From the NCBI GenBank assembly GCA_017461945.1, contig JAFTSB010000024.1:1-56591 (forward strand): a DNA stretch of 56,591 nt. The letters are read 5' to 3'. This DNA comes from Clostridia bacterium (lineage in GTDB: Bacteria > Bacillota > Clostridia > Oscillospirales > CAG-272). This document shows, one piece after another, positions 11,661 to 56,591 of the stretch (position 1 is the stretch's first letter; each line of letters starts with the position of its first letter). A model generated the notes under the pieces. The model saw only the letters and a list, made by a program, of their open reading frames with translations. It had not been told where the DNA came from and did no database searches. The position numbers were made by a program, and so were the translations under genes.

Positions 11661-13871
11661 TCATTCTTCTCCTTTATGAATTTGTGTTTCATCCTTAATC
11701 ACAAATCGATTCACACCTGTTGTCAGCTCACGCCCCCGGAAATTAGCCTTTATACCAACAGGAACGGTTACCTTGTACGTGAACTCGCCGTTTTGATAGC
11801 TCCATTCCACCTCGATGCGTCCTCGAACAGTATCTTCATAGCCTTTTACAAAACCAATTTCCTTCAGAAATGCCGGTTGCAAATCAATTTCTGCAAAAGC
11901 AGGAGCATTCTCCTTTGGAACAATACCCAACAAGGATTTGTAAAACCACGCCAACACATTAGAGAACATATGATGGTTGTGCGATCCCTTATCCTTGCCG
12001 TTCCAGATCTCCCAAAGCGTTGTGGCGCCATCCAGATACCAAGTTTTGTATCCGGGTTCGCTTTCGGTAATGATTTTATAGGCATATTCGGGGTGACCGC
12101 AAGCGGTGAGCGCATCATAAAGATACTGAATGCCGACCATACCACTGGTCAACTTAAATTCGTCCCTGACCACCGCTTCAGCCAACTGTTTTGAGATGAT
12201 GTCACGTTCGCGATAAAGGCCAAATTGCAATAGCATAGCAAGAGCCGTTTGGGAGGTGACAGTCGCCTTCCCTTCATCATCCACGTACGTTGCAATAAAT
12301 TCATCCTCGATCTGCTTGGTTTTGGCCTGCCATGTCCGATCGTCATCACCCTTCAGGCGATGTGCCAAGGTTGTGATACGCAAGGCTTTGATCAGATAGA
12401 AGTCGCGAACGAATTCCTTAGGGGTCAGCTTACTGCTTCCGCTCCCAAGCCAGTCTCCCAAAATAAATTCGTGATTTTCCTCCTTTTTCTGCCAAAGGAA
12501 TGCCACGTAATGTTCAAAATATGGAATGGCGCCTATCAACATAGAACTATCGCCCGTGTATAAATAGGTGCGGTACGGCAGCTCGTATAGCAGATTATCG
12601 CATACAGGCCCCCAGTTATCTCCCCAACCGTGAGATGGGATTACGCCGGGCAAGGAACCGTCCTCGCAGGTATCAAGCTTGATATCCTCATACCATTTTT
12701 CAAACAGTGGCTTGATATCAAAATTGATCAGGATCTGCTCTGCCGTAGCGGCTGCATCGTTGGTCCATCCCAGCTTTTCGCGAGTAGGACAATCCGTCAG
12801 ACTCCAGAACAGGTTGGAATAAGTAGAACGAATACCTGCTTGATAAATATAGTTTAAAATCGGGTTGCCGGATTGAAAATCTGCCGTTCGCGCCACGTCC
12901 TGATGAGTAAAATATGCACGGATCAGCGCAGGATCGGGTGCTTTGGAAAGTCCCTCGATCAGCACATAGCGAAAGCCGTGATAGCAAAACTTGGGCTTAA
13001 AGGTATCCACGCCGCCGGAAGCAATGATTTTATCCAAATGGAAGGGCGATTCGGGATAAAAATACGGCTTGTTCATACCGTTATATTTGAGGTGCATGTC
13101 CGCATCCAGATCCTCGCAATAGCGAAGCAAAATCTCGGCGTCGCGCGATTCCTGCACCGTGATCTGAATGTATCCAGACATGGTGACGCCAAAATCAACC
13201 AAATAGCCTTCATCTGTTTTTGTAATGAATACAGGTTTGATGCACTCCATCTCGCGCACGGGCTGGCAAGGCGTCAGCCGCAGCTCGGCACTTTGGGGAA
13301 TCTCACGGCAATATACCGTCTGCCAATCTTGGTCATCGTATCCGTTCAACATCCAACTATCATCCGCCTTGCGAGCATCATAATATTCACCGCTACGCAA
13401 ATGGCTATATATGATGGGGGATCGTTCTCTGCTCGTCTTCCAAGACGCGTCACTTTCCACCACTATCTTGCCGTTTACCGTTAAAGAAAGCAAAAACTGG
13501 GGCGCATCTCGCCAAGAAGCATCCTTGTGATGCCAAACCGTGTCAAAGGTTTCGTTAAAAAAGCCGTTTCCGGCCATAACTGCAAGAGTGTTTGTACCGG
13601 ACTGCAAGAGCGATTTCACATCATAAGTATTGTACCAGAGCAATTTATTGTAATTGCTTAACGGAGAGATAAACAAATCTTGTGTAACCGGCTTTCCGTT
13701 GATGTAATAGCACGCAAAACCGGGGCTTTGCACCACAATTTGAGCCGTTTTTACTTCTCCTGCGATCTCAAATTCCTTTCGAAACATAGGAATCGGATCA
13801 TAGAGTGAAAAGGTAGAAGGTTTTTCCTGCGCTTTGATGTATACGGCTTTGCCGAAATCACGATGTTTCAT
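11661..13871 (-). CDS. Alpha-L-rhamnosidase-like glycoside hydrolase (GH78)
   Basis: The 736-residue protein starts at the ATG behind AGAGGTGA. It has N-terminal beta-sandwich modules and a C-terminal (alpha/alpha)6 catalytic domain. The GH78 signature LTDCPTREKLGWTNDA contains D360, E365 and D372, spaced as the catalytic-site D567, E572 and D579 of Bacillus RhaB. A later TTLWEIW supplies E621, the equivalent of the catalytic base E841, followed by GSHNHHM. No signal peptide is seen, so it is probably cytoplasmic and acts on imported rhamnosides or small oligosaccharides. It is operonic with the RpiB-like isomerase and divergent from an AraC regulator. Confidence 0.88.
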   Translation of the reverse strand: MKHRDFGKAVYIKAQEKPSTFSLYDPIPMFRKEFEIAGEVKTAQIVVQSPGFACYYINGKPVTQDLFISPLSNYNKLLWYNTYDVKSLLQSGTNTLAVMAGNGFFNETFDTVWHHKDASWRDAPQFLLSLTVNGKIVVESDASWKTSRERSPIIYSHLRSGEYYDARKADDSWMLNGYDDQDWQTVYCREIPQSAELRLTPCQPVREMECIKPVFITKTDEGYLVDFGVTMSGYIQITVQESRDAEILLRYCEDLDADMHLKYNGMNKPYFYPESPFHLDKIIASGGVDTFKPKFCYHGFRYVLIEGLSKAPDPALIRAYFTHQDVARTADFQSGNPILNYIYQAGIRSTYSNLFWSLTDCPTREKLGWTNDAAATAEQILINFDIKPLFEKWYEDIKLDTCEDGSLPGVIPSHGWGDNWGPVCDNLLYELPYRTYLYTGDSSMLIGAIPYFEHYVAFLWQKKEENHEFILGDWLGSGSSKLTPKEFVRDFYLIKALRITTLAHRLKGDDDRTWQAKTKQIEDEFIATYVDDEGKATVTSQTALAMLLQFGLYRERDIISKQLAEAVVRDEFKLTSGMVGIQYLYDALTACGHPEYAYKIITESEPGYKTWYLDGATTLWEIWNGKDKGSHNHHMFSNVLAWFYKSLLGIVPKENAPAFAEIDLQPAFLKEIGFVKGYEDTVRGRIEVEWSYQNGEFTYKVTVPVGIKANFRGRELTTGVNRFVIKDETQIHKGEE

Positions 13872-13890
13872 ATCATCACCTCTTGGCATC

Positions 13891-13920
13891 ATTATGACAT
13901 ATTGTTATGTTGTTTGTCAA
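13891..13920 (-). promoter_or_regulatory. Promoter for the GH78-isomerase operon
   Basis: On the minus strand, TTGACA (13920-13915) and CATAAT (13896-13891) are 18 bases apart, back to back with the AraC gene promoter. Confidence 0.7.
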
Positions 13921-13971
13921 TATCCGCTTTTTTATTTTAATATCCAAATGTGATCTTTTTTTGATATCTGC
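13921..13971. promoter_or_regulatory. Putative AraC-type operator: three TATC boxes
   Basis: Three direct repeats TATCCGC (13921-13927), TATCCAA (13941-13947) and TATCTGC (13965-13971) lie 20 and 24 bases apart, about two helical turns, in the gap between the two divergent promoters. AraC-family proteins commonly bind such paired boxes. This is an inference from position and spacing. Confidence 0.4.
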
Positions 13972-13972
13972 A

Positions 13973-14002
13973 TTGACAAAAATACCACACATCCACTATA
14001 AT
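13973..14002 (+). promoter_or_regulatory. Promoter of the AraC-family gene
   Basis: TTGACA (13973-13978) and TATAAT (13997-14002) are 18 bases apart. The predicted start site (about 14009) coincides with the first ATG at 14010. Confidence 0.75.
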
Positions 14003-14009
14003 AAATATT

Positions 14010-14756
14010 ATGATTATCCAAAATTTAATTATGACAAACGAAAGCTACACGCATAACAACTGGTTTTACAAGGATGTTTGTGTCGGATTTTCCAGATTGT
14101 ATTATATTCTGGACGGCGATGCCTACTACGAGGAGAATGGGCGCAAAAATTTATTAAAAAAAGGACACATATACCTCACACCCGTCAAAAAGCCATTCAC
14201 GTTATCTGAAAATCCGCAAAATAAATTGCTTCACACTTATGCGCACATCACCACTCTCCCTACCGTCAAGCAATTTACCGAGATTGAAGTGAAAGACGAT
14301 TCGCCTTTGGCCGACGCCATTGCTCTATGGCGAAAATATATTCCTACAAAAGATACGGAATTGTTGACAAATATTCTATCTTTTCTGCTATCCTGCCTTG
14401 AAAAGATATCTATACAAGAAAATACAATCGCGCAACAAACCAAAAGATATTTAGATCAACACGATTCTACGCCCGATATGCAATCCCTGTGCAAAGCATT
14501 AGGGTATAGCAGAGAGCATATCACTCGCAGCTTTATAACAGCCTATGGCACAACCCCAAAACAATACTTTCGCTTATACCAAATGAACAAAGCATTAGAA
14601 AAACTGCTGAAAGGATATAAAGTGGGGGACGTTGCCGAAGAAATGCAATACGCCTCTCTTTATTCGTTTAGCAAGGCGTTTAAAAAATATTTTGGACTTT
14701 CGCCCGAAAATTACCTTCTGACATTAAAACAAGAAAAAACAGACGGAAAAACATAA
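14010..14756 (+). CDS. AraC-family transcriptional regulator
   Basis: The 248-residue protein has an N-terminal cupin-like sensor half (about 1-130, with HIYLTPVKKPFTL) and a C-terminal pair of helix-turn-helices (about 150-245). These end in the AraC signature region VAEEMQYASLYSFSKAFKKYFGLSPENYL. It diverges from the GH78 operon and converges on the GH2-ROK operon, so it most likely senses a sugar and controls one or both. No Shine-Dalgarno is visible before either ATG (14010, 14031), and the promoter predicts a leaderless message starting at the first ATG. The gene looks more AT-rich than its neighbours. Confidence 0.9.
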   Translation: MIIQNLIMTNESYTHNNWFYKDVCVGFSRLYYILDGDAYYEENGRKNLLKKGHIYLTPVKKPFTLSENPQNKLLHTYAHITTLPTVKQFTEIEVKDDSPLADAIALWRKYIPTKDTELLTNILSFLLSCLEKISIQENTIAQQTKRYLDQHDSTPDMQSLCKALGYSREHITRSFITAYGTTPKQYFRLYQMNKALEKLLKGYKVGDVAEEMQYASLYSFSKAFKKYFGLSPENYLLTLKQEKTDGKT

Positions 14757-14776
14757 GTTTTTCCGTCTGTTTTTTT
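14734..14776. terminator. Bidirectional terminator between AraC gene and GH2 gene
   Basis: Complementary arms (14734-14752 and 14757-14776) with a 4-base loop ATAA and flanking A- and T-runs overlap the stop codons of both convergent genes. Confidence 0.9.
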
Positions 14777-17108
14777 AAAATCCTTCAAACTCATCCATGT
14801 CGGATTTTTTCAACGAATTCAGATAATCAGTATAGGAAATATCCAAAGTCTTTGTGGCAAAGTGATTGCGCCCCTTGTCACCCAAGGCCGTTTGCCATTC
14901 GATCACCAAGAAATGGAAATCCTCCATAGCCGGGATGGTTGCAATAGGCATAGCACAATCGGGAGTCACCGCGCACTCGCCAGATACCAATACCTGATCG
15001 ATCAACGCATCGCGAACTGTGTAAGAAACCGACTGCTGCGTACCACCGTCCTGTACGGCAAACAATCTTTGCTCACCATTTTCCGGCTCGTCAAACATCA
15101 AGCACAGCGGTGCTTGCGATCTTTTAATGTATTGATATGCCAGTTTTTTGCAGTGATACCAGTCTACCACAGCATCCGAAACCTGGGGCCATCCATCCAA
15201 CAAATTCCACCAAATAATACCGGTGCGGTGAGGCTTGCCCACGCGGAATTTTTCAATGAAATACTTTTTGGCTTCAGCCTGTGAAATCTGGCTTTGCTTG
15301 GCGAAATCTATCAAATTGTCCGCTTCGGCGCCAAAAAGTGTACGCACCTGCTTGACCATCAGCGGAATGCGATAAGCATAGGGAGAAGCGGGGGCGGTAT
15401 CCATAGAGGCTGCGTGAATCAGATACTCGGGCGTACCGTTATCCTGTTCATCCAGCATGGGATAAAGGCTTTCGGACGAAATAAACCTTTCAAGAGACTT
15501 GGGCGAAGGACATCCGTGATAACCAATTTCCGATGCAAAGCAGGACTTTGCCCCTTTATAATACTTGCCCTTAAAATAGTCACGAGGTCCCCACAAATGA
15601 TCCTCAGGGGTAGCGGCGCGTTGCTCGAAAGCAATGTTATCCACATAGGGTGAGGACGGAATATAGGGGCGTACAGGATCGTAATTGCGCACCACCTCCG
15701 GCAAAATGCGGCGCGTGGCGGGATTGTCGTTGGGATTTGCCTTGTTTTTCATCCAGCTCTTGACAAAAACATCCACCTCGTTATCCCCCGCCCAAAGAGC
15801 CAGAGATGCGTGATTGCGCAAACGCTTAACAACAGCAATTGCCTCCTCGCGCAAGGCAGAAAGAAACGGATCGCTTTCGGGATAGATGGCGCACCCCATA
15901 CCGAAATCCTGCCACACAAGAATGCCCTTTTCATCGCAGAAATCATAGAAGGCATCATCCTCATAGACATTGCCGCCCCAACAGCGAACGGCATTACATC
16001 CGCTATCTTCCAGCAAAGCAAGCGCTGCCGGCAATCTCTCCTTGTGACGGCAAGGAAATGCATCCAGGGGGACCCAGTTTGTGCCAAGACAGAAGATCTT
16101 TTTCCCGTTTACGATAAAACCGAACTTACCTTCTCCCTTCTCGTTCAAAACAGAGCTGCGTTCCAACTCCACCGTGCGAACGCCGAAGCGGAAGGACTTT
16201 TCATCCAGCAATTGATCTCCTCGCCACAAACGGAAGGTCACATCATAAAGGGGTTGCTCACCGTAATTCTTAGGATACCAAAGCTTTACGTCGTTCGCTC
16301 GAATCGACAGGTTTTCATAGGTGTGATAAGGCTTTTTCTCTTTGTGAAAACGACTATCGCCGCAAATACCATCCACGGTGATACGCAGATCCTGTAACAG
16401 ATCAACGTTGGTTGTAAACTGCACAAAAGCGGTCAGCTCTGCATAGCCATCCGTTGGCTTTACCCGGGTGGTATACAAATAGCACTGCTCCAATCTTTCA
16501 TCGGATTTTTGCACCAAATAGACCGGTTTCCACAAGCCACCGGAAACAAACCGAGGCATAATATCCCATCCAAACATATAGGCAGCCTTGCGATAAGCCA
16601 GTGATGCCTGGTTGTAATATTGGGTACGATTCAAAGGAGTCAACTCAACATCGCGAGCGGCAATCATAACAGGTGTAATATGTACGATCAGCTCATTCTT
16701 TTTCTTTTTCAAATGGTACTGAAGGTGGTCACATTCGTGAGAAATCAGCATATTTTCGGGCCACATAACAGGAGTCCCATTCAAATAGACCTCTGCCACG
16801 GTATCAACACCTTCAAACAACAGCACCGTGTTGGGTGTGATCTCCTCACAATCGAACGTGGTATAATACCACAGGTGACGATTTTCATACTGGCGGTAAG
16901 CCAATGGATTTTCGCCGAAATATGGGTCGGGGGCAAGTCCGGCAGCGTAAAGATCCAGCTCCATACATCCAGGAACAGAAGCCGAAATTTTCAAATACGG
17001 CGCCTTTTCCAAATCGGCAATTTTATTGGGTACAAAGCCGTTTTTGACTACATCAGCGTGCGGAGCTAACAGCAGTTTCCAATCTTTAATCTCGATTCTC
17101 TTCTCCAT
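14775..17108 (-). CDS. Glycoside hydrolase family 2, beta-mannosidase-like
   Basis: The 777-residue protein follows the GH2 plan: an N-terminal jelly roll (about 1-200, including GWDIMPRFVSGGLWKPV, the beta-mannosidase version of the block), an Ig-like domain, and a TIM barrel from about 320. Acid/base E444 lies in LWAGDNEVD, and nucleophile E527 in CFASEIGYHG. Beta-mannosidases release terminal beta-mannose from manno-oligosaccharides or N-glycan cores. No signal peptide is present, so it is probably cytoplasmic. It starts behind AGGAGAG, 12 bases after the ROK kinase stop, and is operonic with it. Another GH2 specificity is possible. Confidence 0.85.
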   Translation of the reverse strand: MEKRIEIKDWKLLLAPHADVVKNGFVPNKIADLEKAPYLKISASVPGCMELDLYAAGLAPDPYFGENPLAYRQYENRHLWYYTTFDCEEITPNTVLLFEGVDTVAEVYLNGTPVMWPENMLISHECDHLQYHLKKKKNELIVHITPVMIAARDVELTPLNRTQYYNQASLAYRKAAYMFGWDIMPRFVSGGLWKPVYLVQKSDERLEQCYLYTTRVKPTDGYAELTAFVQFTTNVDLLQDLRITVDGICGDSRFHKEKKPYHTYENLSIRANDVKLWYPKNYGEQPLYDVTFRLWRGDQLLDEKSFRFGVRTVELERSSVLNEKGEGKFGFIVNGKKIFCLGTNWVPLDAFPCRHKERLPAALALLEDSGCNAVRCWGGNVYEDDAFYDFCDEKGILVWQDFGMGCAIYPESDPFLSALREEAIAVVKRLRNHASLALWAGDNEVDVFVKSWMKNKANPNDNPATRRILPEVVRNYDPVRPYIPSSPYVDNIAFEQRAATPEDHLWGPRDYFKGKYYKGAKSCFASEIGYHGCPSPKSLERFISSESLYPMLDEQDNGTPEYLIHAASMDTAPASPYAYRIPLMVKQVRTLFGAEADNLIDFAKQSQISQAEAKKYFIEKFRVGKPHRTGIIWWNLLDGWPQVSDAVVDWYHCKKLAYQYIKRSQAPLCLMFDEPENGEQRLFAVQDGGTQQSVSYTVRDALIDQVLVSGECAVTPDCAMPIATIPAMEDFHFLVIEWQTALGDKGRNHFATKTLDISYTDYLNSLKKSDMDEFEGF

Positions 17109-53145: not shown

Positions 53146-53733
53146 TCAATTTGCAACCTTTACCATTGCATAACGCAATACGCGGTCGCCCTTCATATAG
53201 CCCTTTTGCAGAACCTCTACAATCTCCCCTTCACCGTATGCTTCATCCTCTACGTGGAAAACAGCATTGTGGTAAACAGGGTCAAAGGTCTTGCCCAAAG
53301 CCTCAATTTCTGTCACGCCGATTTTGGCCAGCGTTTCCTCAACGCTTTTCAAAACCATGGCAACGCCCTTGGCAACGCTTTCACCGTCGCTGTAAAGTGC
53401 CGCGCGCTCCAAGTTATCAATAACAGGAAACAAGGCAGCAAGCGCGGCAGCATAGGCTTCGCTGTAAATGCGTTCCTGCTCCTCCTTGCTACGCCGGCGG
53501 AAATTATCATATTCAGCAGCAAGGCGCAAATATTTGTCATTCAGCTCTGCGCACTCGGTCTCTTTGTCTGCTAACTTATTAGTGGCCTCCAGCAATTCGC
53601 CTTCTACCTTTTTCAGTTTCTTTTTTGGATCCTTTCCACCACGACTGATCTCCTCGGCCTCCGCCAGGATATCGTCCATTTCCGTAGCGGCCTCCTCGGC
53701 GACGGTTTCTTCTTTCATCATATCATCCATCAT
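53146..53733 (-). CDS. grpE: Nucleotide exchange factor GrpE
   Basis: The 195-residue protein starts at ATG behind AAAGGAG, inside the end of hrcA (11-base overlap). It has an acidic N-terminus, a long coiled coil (about 45-110, YLRLAAEYDNFRRRSKEEQERIY) and the beta-domain with FDPVYHNAVFHVEDE and KGYMKGDRVLRYAMVKVAN. It releases ADP from DnaK. Confidence 0.96.
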   Translation of the reverse strand: MMDDMMKEETVAEEAATEMDDILAEAEEISRGGKDPKKKLKKVEGELLEATNKLADKETECAELNDKYLRLAAEYDNFRRRSKEEQERIYSEAYAAALAALFPVIDNLERAALYSDGESVAKGVAMVLKSVEETLAKIGVTEIEALGKTFDPVYHNAVFHVEDEAYGEGEIVEVLQKGYMKGDRVLRYAMVKVAN

Positions 53734-54796
53734 GGTTATCTCCTTTCGCTTGGTGCTTGGGTTCACTTAACAGCTGCGTAATATTTCCACCCAGATTATC
53801 CAAGGTAGCAAGCACACGAGCATAGTCCATGCGCAACGGACCAATCACCCCAATGGCACCCACAGTCTTTCCTTTACTTTTAATCGGCTTAAATACAAGC
53901 GTCGAATTATTGATCACCTTTACCGAGCTCTCAGAGCCGATCACCACGTTGACACGGTCCTCATCGGTATCCGTCACAAGATCCAGAATGGCATCCTTTT
54001 GTTCAAAGGCTCCCAGCAGTTGGCCCAACTCGTCACTATCCGAAAATTCAGGGTATTGAAGCAATCGGTCAAGACCGCTGACCTTCAGCTCGCCGCCGTC
54101 CAGCTCTCCGATCACCTCGTAAATACTCTTCATTACGGTGTTGACCAAGGCGGAATCCCCTGCCATACGCGCCTCAAGACTCATAATAATGGGCAGCGTG
54201 ATCTCTCCGACCTCATGGTCAGCCACAAGCTCGTTCAACGCTTCAGAGAGCGCGCTGATCACGTGCGTATCCAACTCTGTATCCGTAAAAATGTTGCGCG
54301 TTTTTACCGAGCCGTCAGAGGCGACCAATATTAAAATGAAGCTATGAGAATCGATCAAAGCCGTTTCAAAGCGCTTTACCGTAATGGAACGGGAACGCGG
54401 TTTAATGGCAAATCCGGTATAATTGGTCAACGAAGAAGCCACCTTTGAAGCATTGTCCAAAATGCGATCCAACTCTGACATTTTCACCTTCATCAGTTGG
54501 TTGATTTGGGCAATCTCCTTGGCAGTCATTGCGTATTCCTCAAGCAAGGAATCTACATAAAACCGATATCCTTGTTTACTGGGCACTCGCCCTGCTGAGG
54601 TGTGAGGCTGCTCTAACAGACCCATATTTTCCAGCTCTGCCATCTCGTTACGGATGGTAGCGGAGGAGCAGGAGAGCTGCTTGCTTTCCATAATATATTT
54701 TGACCCCACAGGCTCGCCGCCTTGAATGTGAGCCTCAACAATGGCCTTTAAAATCTGTTTTTTTCGGTCGCTTAATCCGTCACCGTAAAGATCCAT
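53723..54796 (-). CDS. hrcA: Heat-inducible transcription repressor HrcA
   Basis: The 357-residue repressor has an N-terminal winged helix with LSCSSATIRNEMAELENMGLLEQPHTSAGRVPS and a C-terminal GAF-like domain ending in GPLRMDYARVLATLDNLG. It binds CIRCE, which is present just upstream, so the operon is autoregulated. The order hrcA-grpE-dnaK-dnaJ-prmA matches the class I heat-shock operon of Bacillota. Confidence 0.97.
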   Translation of the reverse strand: MDLYGDGLSDRKKQILKAIVEAHIQGGEPVGSKYIMESKQLSCSSATIRNEMAELENMGLLEQPHTSAGRVPSKQGYRFYVDSLLEEYAMTAKEIAQINQLMKVKMSELDRILDNASKVASSLTNYTGFAIKPRSRSITVKRFETALIDSHSFILILVASDGSVKTRNIFTDTELDTHVISALSEALNELVADHEVGEITLPIIMSLEARMAGDSALVNTVMKSIYEVIGELDGGELKVSGLDRLLQYPEFSDSDELGQLLGAFEQKDAILDLVTDTDEDRVNVVIGSESSVKVINNSTLVFKPIKSKGKTVGAIGVIGPLRMDYARVLATLDNLGGNITQLLSEPKHQAKGDNHDG

Positions 54797-54889: not shown

Positions 54890-54933
54890 GGATTTTACAC
54901 AACTTTTTTAACTTTTTTCAAGTTTATAATGTT

Positions 54934-54980
54934 GAGTGAATAATTCAGACGTGGTTGCCTGGAATATTCACTCCTTTTTT
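54934..54980 (+). terminator. Terminator-like hairpin on the plus strand at the edge of the mobile region
   Basis: GAGTGAATA (54934-54942) pairs with TATTCACTC (54965-54973), extended by 3 bp past a bulge and followed by T6 (54975-54980). No plus-strand gene lies upstream. A TATAAT at 54925-54930 would start a transcript right at this hairpin. It could be a tiny RNA, or the 3' end of element genes that read into it when the element is circular. Confidence 0.5.
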
Positions 54981-54994
54981 GTTGACATACCCTT

Positions 54995-55033
54995 CATTGT
55001 CGACAATGCCGCCCACCTCGCGAGGTGGGCGGC
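54995..55033. repeat. Two abutting perfect palindromes
   Basis: CATTGTCGACAATG (54995-55008) is a 14-bp perfect palindrome. It shares its last base with a 26-bp perfect palindrome whose arms are GCCGCCCACCTCG (55008-55020) and its exact complement (55021-55033). They lie between hrcA and the small gene at 55139, in the putative mobile region. Confidence 0.85.
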
Positions 55034-55138
55034 GACCAGCCTTGATCGGCGGCGGGAAAAATAGTCGATCCCCCTTGATACAATGCCGTGTATAGGCTTG
55101 TAAATATATAAAATGCCGCATAGGCGAAGGAGAACAAC

Positions 55139-55402
55139 ATGGAAGTAAAATTGTACAAAAAGAATGGCACGTACATCGACAAGAAGGATGGCAAAGAAAA
55201 GCGCTTTACCAATTTCTACGTTGCGTGCGGTGATCAGCTGATCCCTGTGGAGCCCAAGTATTTTCCAAACGACAAGTGCGAAGGCCGTGACCCTCAATTT
55301 TCTGCACGAAAGGCCGTCATGGAAGCGTTTGCTGAATCTTTCCCCGAAGCTCCCTCTGTTTCCACCCCTGCACCGACACAAGGCAACGCAAATTTTCGGT
55401 AA
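55139..55402 (+). CDS. Small gene of the Rep element, possible frameshift donor
   Basis: The 87-residue protein starts behind GAAGGAG. It is basic at the N-terminus (MEVKLYKKNGTYIDKKDGKE), probably beta-rich, with a Pro/Thr/Ala tail. No family is recognised. Its codons 84-86 read gcA-AAT-TTT, a slippery heptamer of the X-XXY-YYZ form at 55390-55396, four codons from the stop (AAT TTT CGG TAA). A -1 shift would add 69 residues with two CxxC pairs. It is the first of the plus-strand genes leading to rep. Confidence 0.65.
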   Translation: MEVKLYKKNGTYIDKKDGKEKRFTNFYVACGDQLIPVEPKYFPNDKCEGRDPQFSARKAVMEAFAESFPEAPSVSTPAPTQGNANFR

Positions 55403-55605
55403 CCAGGCCATCGGTAAAAAATGGGTTAACTTGCCCGAAGTGCGGCAAGCCAATGCGCCTGGATGATAAAGACACCCACACCTATGACCGTGAGGCTACC
55501 TATTGGTATGTTTGCGACACCTGCCATATCGATGCCGTAGCTGACGGCACCACAAATACGGTGGAATGGAGTAAAGATGGTGAAACCTTTACTTCACACT
55601 TTTGA
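55396..55605 (+). CDS. Zinc-ribbon reading frame without its own start codon
   Basis: Read in the -1 frame after the slippery site, this codes for 69 residues with CPKC (13-16) and CDTC (40-43), the two knuckles of a zinc ribbon. The frame is open from about 55334 to the TGA at 55603. It has no ATG, GTG or TTG before the first cysteine pair; the only ATG falls after CPKCGKP. So it is either expressed by frameshift from the upstream gene (155-residue fusion) or is a decayed half of a single gene. Confidence 0.5.
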   Translation, partial: SVTRPSVKNGLTCPKCGKPMRLDDKDTHTYDREATYWYVCDTCHIDAVADGTTNTVEWSKDGETFTSHF

Positions 55606-55665
55606 GTGAGAAAAACTAAAAAACTTGGCAAAAGGTGCAAAACGTGCAAAAGTGGCAATGTATAA
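55606..55665 (+). CDS. Possible 19-residue basic peptide
   Basis: A GTG directly after the zinc-ribbon stop opens a short frame, MRKTKKLGKRCKTCKSGNV, with one CxxC pair. It has no ribosome binding site and overlaps the iteron-like repeats, so it may be chance. Confidence 0.15.
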   Translation: MRKTKKLGKRCKTCKSGNV

Positions 55666-55770
55666 GCCACATGATATAAACCGCGAATGCCCGATAGCAT
55701 CTAAAAATCACGACACCTACGCCCCCGCCGCTTGGGGCTTGTCCAAGCGGCTTGGGCAAAAGGTGCAAAA
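55627..55770 (+). repeat. Iteron-like repeats upstream of rep
   Basis: GGCAAAAGGTGCAAAA occurs twice in direct orientation (55627-55642 and 55755-55770). The first copy is followed at once by another GTGCAAAA. The second copy forms the rep ribosome binding site and start. Rolling-circle Rep proteins bind iterons of this kind near their origins. Confidence 0.6.
55727..55751 (+). other. Origin-like hairpin in front of rep
   Basis: GCCGCTTGG (55727-55735) and CCAAGCGGC (55743-55751) form a perfect 9-bp stem with the 7-base loop GGCTTGT. It lies between the two iteron-like repeats and 19 bases before rep. No T-run follows, so it is not a terminator. The layout fits a rolling-circle double-strand origin, but the nick site cannot be assigned. 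Confidence 0.5.
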
Positions 55771-56591
55771 TGGTGAAAAACTTTCAATACCGGGGGTTAA
55801 ATGTGTATTGTAAGCAATATGAGATTGTCACAGATGCTGACAAAATATCTGTTGACATACAAAAAACGTGTATGGAGCGCAAGACCATAAAAAAGTGGGC
55901 TTATATACTCCACGATAAGGATGACACTCGTCCGCATTATCATATCTACATCAATTTTGGCAATAGTGGGATCAATTCCGCAGATGTTGCCGAGTGGTTC
56001 GGCGTGCCGGAAAACTTTATTGAAAAGGTCAAGGGCCGTTATACGGATATGCTTCTTTACCTGACGCACGGCAACGATTCACAACAGAATAAGCACCAGT
56101 ATTCCGCATCTGAGGTCGTGGCAAATTTCGATTTCCAGACCGAGATTATGAACTCCAAGATCCTTGGAGACTTTGAAAAGTATTCCTATGCCCAACAGTT
56201 GGCTTATGTAAATTCCCTGCCCGTATCCGAAAAGTCCACGGCCTTCAATAAGTTGCAGACTCTTTGGAAATTGCATTGTCAATGTTTGATGCTTAAGCCG
56301 GACCGCAACGTGGAGGTTGTTTTTGTTTGCGGCAAAGGGGGTACCGGTAAGACGTATTATGCCAAAAAACTCTTGACGTCGTTAGACTATGACTATTGCG
56401 TATCTTCGTCTTCCAATGATCCTTTCCAGGACTATATGGGTCAAAAGGCTATTATCCTGGATGACCTTCGTGATCAAACTTTTGAATTTGCGGATCTTTT
56501 GAAAATTCTTGACAATAACACGGCCTCCAGCGTGAGGAGCCGTTTTGCAAATAAGGTGTTCAATGGTGAAATGATTGTGATCACATCCACA
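55770..56591 (+). CDS. rep: Rolling-circle replication initiator: HUH endonuclease + SF3 helicase (partial)
   Basis: The first 274 residues are visible, and the gene runs off the window. It starts at ATG 55770 behind AAAAGGTG. The endonuclease domain (about 40-130) has the HUH motif as RPHYHIYI (H56, H58) and a Tyr motif DMLLYLTHGN, with Y97 41 residues after H56, as in Rep_2/pMV158 RepB. After a linker (130-180) comes a superfamily 3 helicase: Walker A GKGGTGKT (188-195), Walker B AIILDD (D231, D232) and motif C starting MIVITST at 268-274. Rep nicks an origin and unwinds it for rolling-circle replication. This domain pair is that of CRESS-DNA viruses and related bacterial plasmids. Confidence 0.88.
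   Translation, partial: MVKNFQYRGLNVYCKQYEIVTDADKISVDIQKTCMERKTIKKWAYILHDKDDTRPHYHIYINFGNSGINSADVAEWFGVPENFIEKVKGRYTDMLLYLTHGNDSQQNKHQYSASEVVANFDFQTEIMNSKILGDFEKYSYAQQLAYVNSLPVSEKSTAFNKLQTLWKLHCQCLMLKPDRNVEVVFVCGKGGTGKTYYAKKLLTSLDYDYCVSSSSNDPFQDYMGQKAIILDDLRDQTFEFADLLKILDNNTASSVRSRFANKVFNGEMIVITST

Follow-up and report, generated by a model that had tools for sequence, protein, structure and literature searches.

We describe an integrated mobile element that begins close to the right edge of a 56,591-nucleotide stretch of Clostridia bacterium DNA (the window: bases 1-56591 of a 202398-base contig). The element occupies contig positions 54919-67109, and the window contains the left 1.7 kb of its 12.2 kb; the remainder was read from the same contig as part of locus L010 (contig 54700-74000). 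With moderate confidence we regard it as an element that is mobilised by an IS30-family transposase and replicates by rolling circle, most likely a filamentous-phage-like provirus of Clostridia. The family of the transposase, the domains of the replication protein (Rep), the covariation of the origin hairpin, the ends of the element, an empty site in a congener and one circular contig with a promoter-like junction are established computationally.

A sequence-only reading of the window had placed the edge of an integrated replicon on the chromosome, beside the heat-shock operon. Both parts of this claim hold. The gene on the left flank is hrcA, with grpE, dnaK and dnaJ beyond it, and a chromosomal acyltransferase-like gene lies to the right of the element (these names come from reading the translations). 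Copies of an 18-bp direct repeat, AACTTTTTTAACTTTTTT, stand on either side (coordinates in Table 1), so that the element between them measures about 12.2 kb. The congener (G017:C56) has counterparts of the window's hrcA and acyltransferase flanks (74% and 72% identical, respectively) next to each other, with the element absent between them. The suspicion that the contig ends in a misassembled plasmid is ruled out, as the contig runs on far past the window; the window's end, used as a query against plasmid DNA, gave no matches.

Flanking repeats were also found around relatives, with lengths of 14 bp in L011 and L036, 16 bp in L122 and L085, and 17 bp in genome G013, where they were read from two contigs bearing one end each. 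Across these six insertions the repeat is thus 14-18 bp long, and its sequence varies from insertion to insertion. The sequence AAGTTTATAATGTTGAGTGAATA stands at the left ends of L011 and L012 too, with near variants in L115 and L123; the left end reads AAGTTTATAATG in L010, L011 and L012 and AGTTTATAATC in L036, while L122 and L085 differ. Of the eight right ends read first, six have TTGACATT[T/C]GC; the inverted form of GTTGAGTGAAT from the left-end hairpin, ATTCACTCAAC, is present at the right ends of both L010 and L035. The element is a member of a real, well-bounded family, which is probably active. The two G013 contigs (L012 and L035) appear to be halves of one element; at the assembly break (L012 6811-7108 and L035 1-240) they hold a gene with a repeated PPVDNTCKVCGKDPCIC unit.

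An Xer-type integrated plasmid with an attachment duplication, which had been anticipated, finds no support in these ends. Ten L010 proteins were scanned with Pfam and none was identified as a site-specific recombinase; a transposase of the IS30 family occupies the far end, and the repeats are unlike between insertions. No tRNA genes were found in L010; L012 does have one for tRNA-Lys, 62 bp beyond its left repeat on the outer side, and the repeat itself is not within the tRNA.

The transposase is encoded on the plus strand at the right end of the element and matches NF033563 (E=4.6e-67, 226 bits against a cut-off of 80), as do the transposases of L011 and L122. For its wider occurrence we relied on a Rep-alignment scan of bacterial genomes, which gave 56 loci, 45 of them close (L082-L126) and 11 distant; with L010 added, the close Rep loci number 46 (two of them, L082 and L083, repeat the contigs of L011 and L012). 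The transposase was detected in just eight of these 46, many of which are cut by contig or locus ends, and IS30 elements are common. The transposase could on these grounds be an unrelated insertion beside a replicon that has another integration system, which we judge very improbable. It lies at the right boundary, beside the flanking repeat, in L010, L011, L035, L036 and L122, and in the circular contig described next the transposase end is joined straight onto the leader of p87, the 87-aa protein gene upstream of rep. Element ends and circle together largely exclude an unrelated insertion.

The circular form is known from one relative and not from the window's own copy. Contig JAGBSS010000138.1 (L114, 13,154 bases) has a perfect 141-bp terminal repeat, with the C-terminus of the transposase at one contig end and the N-terminus at the other. 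Because the terminal repeat splits the transposase gene, the contig reads as a 13,013-bp circle, in the form in which assemblers commonly write one, although it could conceivably be a tandem array. A terminal-overlap check of 16 whole contigs found self-overlap only in L137, a distant Rothia Rep contig.

At the closed L114 junction we find TTGACA, 17 nt and TAAAAT, pointing toward p87 and rep. This is the best promoter-like match in the region (11/12 in a consensus scan), which holds nine promoter-like matches where 3.2 are expected. In the window, the left end contains TATAAT at 54925-54930, which may act as a -10 box; the matching -35 would then be supplied by the opposite end. At nine of 13 right ends TTGACA occurs in the interval that opens 20 nt ahead of the transposase stop and closes 70 nt past it, against a chance expectation of 0.3 of 13 (shuffling of 70 nt). 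It is missing from L085, L091, L138 and L139 (L085 has TTGACT at the repeat boundary further on), and adding L026, which also lacks it, gives nine of 14. If a 14-bp duplication is assumed, the joined ends of L010, L011, L036 and G013 leave 15 or 16 nt between the two hexamers, to which any coupling bases would add. The -35-like and -10-like halves lie at opposite ends of integrated copies and would be assembled only by ring closure, which suggests that closure may switch the p87-rep operon on. The orientation of the junction toward the replication and structural operon is the feature that we propose as new. A search for the junction pattern in 290 genomes of the host family gave no matches; the pattern covers a single left-end type, and the L114 junction would escape it. 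Two IMG/VR contigs (25 and 44 kb) matched the pattern, showed none of the element genes in the stretches examined and were judged chance hits.

The replication protein is read to its end because the contig extends beyond the window. From a GTG start, which agrees better with the starts of homologues than the mechanical start at 55752, rep runs to a stop at contig 56903 and encodes 366 aa, so the truncation that had been thought conceivable just past the window is ruled out. The part inside the window matches Rep_OBD (PF01719, E=3.6e-12) and the superfamily 3 (SF3) helicase domain (RNA_helicase/SF3, PF00910, E=4e-8; 5.3e-8 in the scan of the L010 proteins), both passing their cut-offs, and direct reading finds the motifs PHYH, YLTH, GKGGTGKT, IILDD and QLYRRI. 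Domains and motifs bear out the combination of HUH, YLTH and SF3 P-loop recognised by the sequence-only reading. That reading had also treated a missing sensor-1 Asn as grounds for doubt. The Asn is indeed absent, motif C in this Rep clade being most commonly ITSS, ITST or ITSP, yet all 11 distant pCRESS-type Reps have Pro at that position; the residue therefore does not discriminate and was dropped as a criterion. YLxH is common to this Rep, to eight Reps of set A1 and to all 11 distant Reps, and by motif this Rep fits the pCRESS4-8 'YLxH' plasmid group. The nearest named Reps found are those of phytoplasma plasmids (32-36% identity).

Two further observations concern Rep-like frames. In L092 (9956-11461), L100 (10010-11540) and L103 (3453-5013) a separate short frame, similar to part of Rep, directly precedes the full Rep; it may be a broken copy or a duplication of the nuclease domain. 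The window's genome encodes a second Rep_OBD protein, a 201-aa frame at contig ~75023-75259 of L047 (G000:C43:66000-84000), with no SF3 domain apparent and a 255-aa secreted-looking protein nearby; L047 is possibly another, different integrated replicon.

The hairpin immediately before rep looks as expected of a rolling-circle origin, with a predicted nick site in its loop. The loop motif GGCTTGT occurs upstream of rep in 34 of the 46 loci (searched stretch ~460 bases), where about three would be expected by chance (an arithmetic estimate from a density of 0.13 per kb). At least eight of 12 stem pairs form in 28 of these 34 loci. Two of the 28 are identical to others, and L011, L012, L026 and L036 were left out of the survey as duplicates. 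In the 26 distinct hairpins (this copy and 25 relatives) GGGCTTGTC is invariant, and 11 of the 12 stem pairs are changed on both sides, with 92% of pairing cells kept. The covariation score is 0.636, against 0.163 in shuffled alignments (none of 500 reach it) and at most 0.177 in slid controls, with the proviso that selecting hairpins by pairing favours pairing, the six excluded ones including shifted stems. The palindromes and iteron-like GGTGCAAAA repeats reported earlier from the sequence are both present; copies of GGTGnAAAA, which stand beside the hairpin in many loci though not in all, number three in L010 and at most four in relatives, and many loci have none.

The protein p87 was detected in 31 of the 46 close Rep loci and gave no significant matches to Pfam, PHROG or NCBIfam; by analogy, it may bind single-stranded DNA. 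The small zinc-ribbon-like open reading frame (ORF) that follows has weak relatives in L035, L123 and L124. We further note long perfect palindromes in the leader between the left end and p87, with arms of 13 bp in the window (55008-55033), 18 bp in L011 (4074-4109) and 16 bp in L123. They are unrelated in sequence, the maximum arm after shuffling is 7-8 in L010 and L011, and arms of at least 11 occur in only five of 29 relatives. These palindromes might serve as a second-strand origin or a packaging-type hairpin.

The likeness to filamentous phages lies in the genes past rep. On the contig, rep is followed by a 59-aa basic protein, a 183-aa and a 251-aa protein with an N-terminal hydrophobic segment, and a 648-aa secreted-type protein that is hydrophobic at the N-terminus and again close to the C-terminus. 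On the opposite strand L010 encodes a transmembrane (TM) protein of 161-166 aa, a 768-aa P-loop ATPase, small ORFs and a protein with a SprT-like match below cut-off. Of 39 ATPase frames, two contigs being counted twice, 26 have a small single-TM ORF (26-68 aa) directly upstream. Genes III, VI and I of M13 stand in an order comparable to that of the secreted-anchored protein, the small TM ORF and the ATPase here, and the gene set as a whole resembles that of a filamentous phage.

Several observations weigh against a filamentous phage and bear on a rival explanation, that of a pCRESS-like integrated plasmid which makes no virions and uses its ATPase and surface proteins for contact DNA transfer or in a cell-surface role. 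PHROGs and Pfam named no candidate major coat protein among the L010 proteins scanned. The ATPase is not demonstrably pI/Zot, and four predicted TM segments precede its core, an arrangement known from coupling proteins. A profile comparison with six known pI-type proteins found only the P-loop in common, in a set in which the Pf1 protein itself has no Pfam Zot match and the Bajarodino protein matches only AAA_14. Two predicted structure models reached only moderate mean pLDDT (68.8 and 66.4), and in fold comparisons conjugative coupling proteins were not among the matches listed, which excludes nothing. A 130-aa protein weakly matches the mobilisation protein NikA (E 0.058, below cut-off), and the SprT-like match of one L010 protein (below the Pfam cut-off) and ArdC-like genes in relatives (by reading of translations) would suit plasmids. 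According to Kazlauskas et al. 2019 (PMC6668415), homologues of known viral structural proteins are not found in pCRESS elements. Beyond the weak NikA match, however, Pfam and PHROGs named no relaxase or type IV secretion genes among ten L010 proteins each, and the gene order is like that of M13. We consider such a plasmid rather unlikely.

The close Rep loci belong to Clostridia and further Firmicutes, Pumilibacter muris and P. intestinalis among them, whereas the distant loci are those of Streptococcus, lactic acid bacteria and other bacteria. In the P. intestinalis relative, L111, p87 and rep are accompanied by both the 648-aa protein and the ATPase; a carrier strain of this species is CLA-AA-M10. 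In P. muris CLA-AA-M08 the ATPase is read as two overlapping frames. Among the 23 close loci with at least 8 kb downstream, the ATPase is found in 17, the 648-aa protein in 16, both in 14, either in 19 and the transposase in six, with neither ATPase nor 648-aa protein in L109, L113, L118 and L122. L094, which lies outside these 23, was counted as ATPase-bearing through a cross-match on the Rep frame, and L107/L108 and L125/L126 are each pairs from one genome. In the 11 distant loci p87, the 648-aa protein, the ATPase and the transposase were all undetected. In samples of the host family, 20 of 295 genomes have the ATPase; a Rep match is present in 14 of 290, at 62% identity or more in seven of these (own genome counted). 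The ATPase element L034 has a Rep_trans initiator instead, and L043 matches Rep_trans below cut-off only.

Scans of IMG/VR with Rep, the ATPase and the Rep alignment gave no relatives. A phage collection gave 13 Rep matches, covering at most 45% of the query and all inside the N-terminal 165 residues, and one ATPase relative, in a human-gut contig. In that contig (L142, MT835493.1, 'Bacteriophage sp.', 12288-16085) the ATPase is 43% identical and accompanied by a relative of the 648-aa protein; it adjoins genes that look phosphorothioation-related (Dnd-type) in their translations, and no Rep relative was detected in the stretch examined.

Whatever its relatives do, the copy in the window's genome might be a decaying remnant. 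Its ATPase block has the opposite orientation to that in relatives, with GKD in the P-loop, and the G009 copy (L011 3971-9549, G009:C3) spans 5.6 kb only, with the ATPase and 648-aa genes not detected. Against decay, the main L010 ORFs are open, the ends and flanking repeat are intact, and GKD is also found in L014 and L025 at 53-59% identity, so that it is conserved and not a fresh lesion. A remnant therefore seems improbable to us. The G009 copy itself has intact ends, rep, a transposase and the 14-bp flanking repeat, and may be a deletion derivative or a satellite exploiting another element's proteins.

Precedents exist for three parts of this picture: predicted inoviruses with HUH-SF3 Reps, filamentous phages with transposases of the IS30 type, and promoters formed at IS30 junctions. 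Kazlauskas et al. 2019 (PMC6668415) define the YLxH supergroup with the pCRESS4-8 integrated plasmids, describe these elements as having no homologues of known viral structural proteins, and state that replication-initiator exchange occurs in inoviruses. Our element shares with pCRESS4-8 an HUH and SF3 Rep, YLxH as motif III, chromosomal integration and direct-repeat ends; unlike those plasmids, which integrate site-specifically, it has an IS30 transposase, target repeats that differ and a conserved secreted/TM/ATPase module. The vespertilioviruses are said there to lack a Rep, whereas transposase and HUH-SF3 Rep occur together here.

In Roux et al. 2019 (PMC6813254) the predicted inovirus family iPF_00203 has an RCR+S3H Rep, so that the pairing of an HUH-SF3 Rep with an inovirus is not wholly new. 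Shared with our element are the S3H-type Rep, in the case of iPF_00203, and, for the predicted inoviruses of that source, a circular genome of ~5-15 kb (as in L114). They have short single-TM structural proteins and exchangeable replication genes; the single-TM ORFs here are putatively structural. The inoviruses of PMC6813254 were found via pI-like ATPases, with Zot as nearest domain, and the ATPase of our element is not detected in this way. IS30 itself (PMC9333248) forms circles with joined ends, which can make a strong junction promoter, Pjunc. Common to both are the transposase family, with an IS30-type DDE transposase, and the circle with joined ends, seen here in one relative. Unlike here, IS30 target repeats are 2 bp long and Pjunc drives the transposase. 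Among the papers listed for inoviruses, CRESS (circular Rep-encoding single-stranded) Reps, SF3 helicases, IS30 circles and long repeats, and filamentous phages of gut Clostridia (for the broader topics a part of the matches), none was recognised from its title and abstract opening as a description of this element.

We infer promoter activity, the nick site, the function of p87, export and a virion, and propose the following cycle. The transposase would join both element ends into a circle, in which TTGACA of the right end comes to lie about 17 nt from TATAAT of the left end. The resulting junction promoter would drive p87, rep and the membrane and secreted genes. Rep would nick the loop of the hairpin at GGGCTTGTC, and its SF3 helicase would unwind the DNA for rolling-circle replication. 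The single-stranded DNA, perhaps bound by p87, would be exported by the membrane ATPase in concert with the 648-aa surface protein and the small TM proteins, and a circle could reinsert, making the 14-18 bp target duplication.

Table 1. Features of the element and its left flank (window positions unless marked as contig or L010).
Feature	Position	Strand	Basis
hrcA, chromosomal left flank	53723..54796	minus	ORF and translation reading
Left copy of 18-bp direct repeat AACTTTTTTAACTTTTTT	54901..54918	none	repeat comparison
Element left end CAAGTTTATAATGTTGAGTGAATA...	54919..54948	plus	shared with L011, L012
Left-end hairpin GAGTGAATA...TATTCACTC	54934..54973	none	palindrome search
Palindromes	54934-54973, 55008-55033, 55721-55757		palindrome search
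Perfect 26-bp palindrome in p87 leader	55008..55033	none	palindrome search
p87, 87-aa protein upstream of rep	55139..55402	plus	ribosome-binding site and ORF
Small CxxC...CxxC zinc-ribbon-like ORF, start codon uncertain	55453..55605	plus	ORF reading
Iteron-like GGTGnAAAA repeats, both sides of origin hairpin	55618..55789		repeat search
Predicted rolling-circle origin hairpin, loop GGCTTGT in GGGCTTGTC	55722..55756	plus	covariation
rep, HUH endonuclease and SF3 helicase (GTG start 55803)	55803..56591, ends contig 56903	plus	Pfam, motifs
Right copy of 18-bp repeat AACTTTTTTAACTTTTTT	contig 67110-67127 = L010 12411-12428		repeat comparison

Plasmid Reps of this kind are the presumed ancestors of the Reps of CRESS-DNA viruses. 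Such a Rep coupled to an apparent export and surface module would make the element a meeting place of plasmid-type replication and virus-like spread. More tentatively, these elements may represent a widespread filamentous virus lineage of Clostridia that has a CRESS-type HUH-SF3 Rep, travels as an IS30-type transposon and keeps its replication and virion operon off in the chromosome through a split promoter. The split promoter, if true, would be a simple, testable switch between provirus and circle, and the relatives in cultured Pumilibacter strains allow tests that do not depend on metagenomes.
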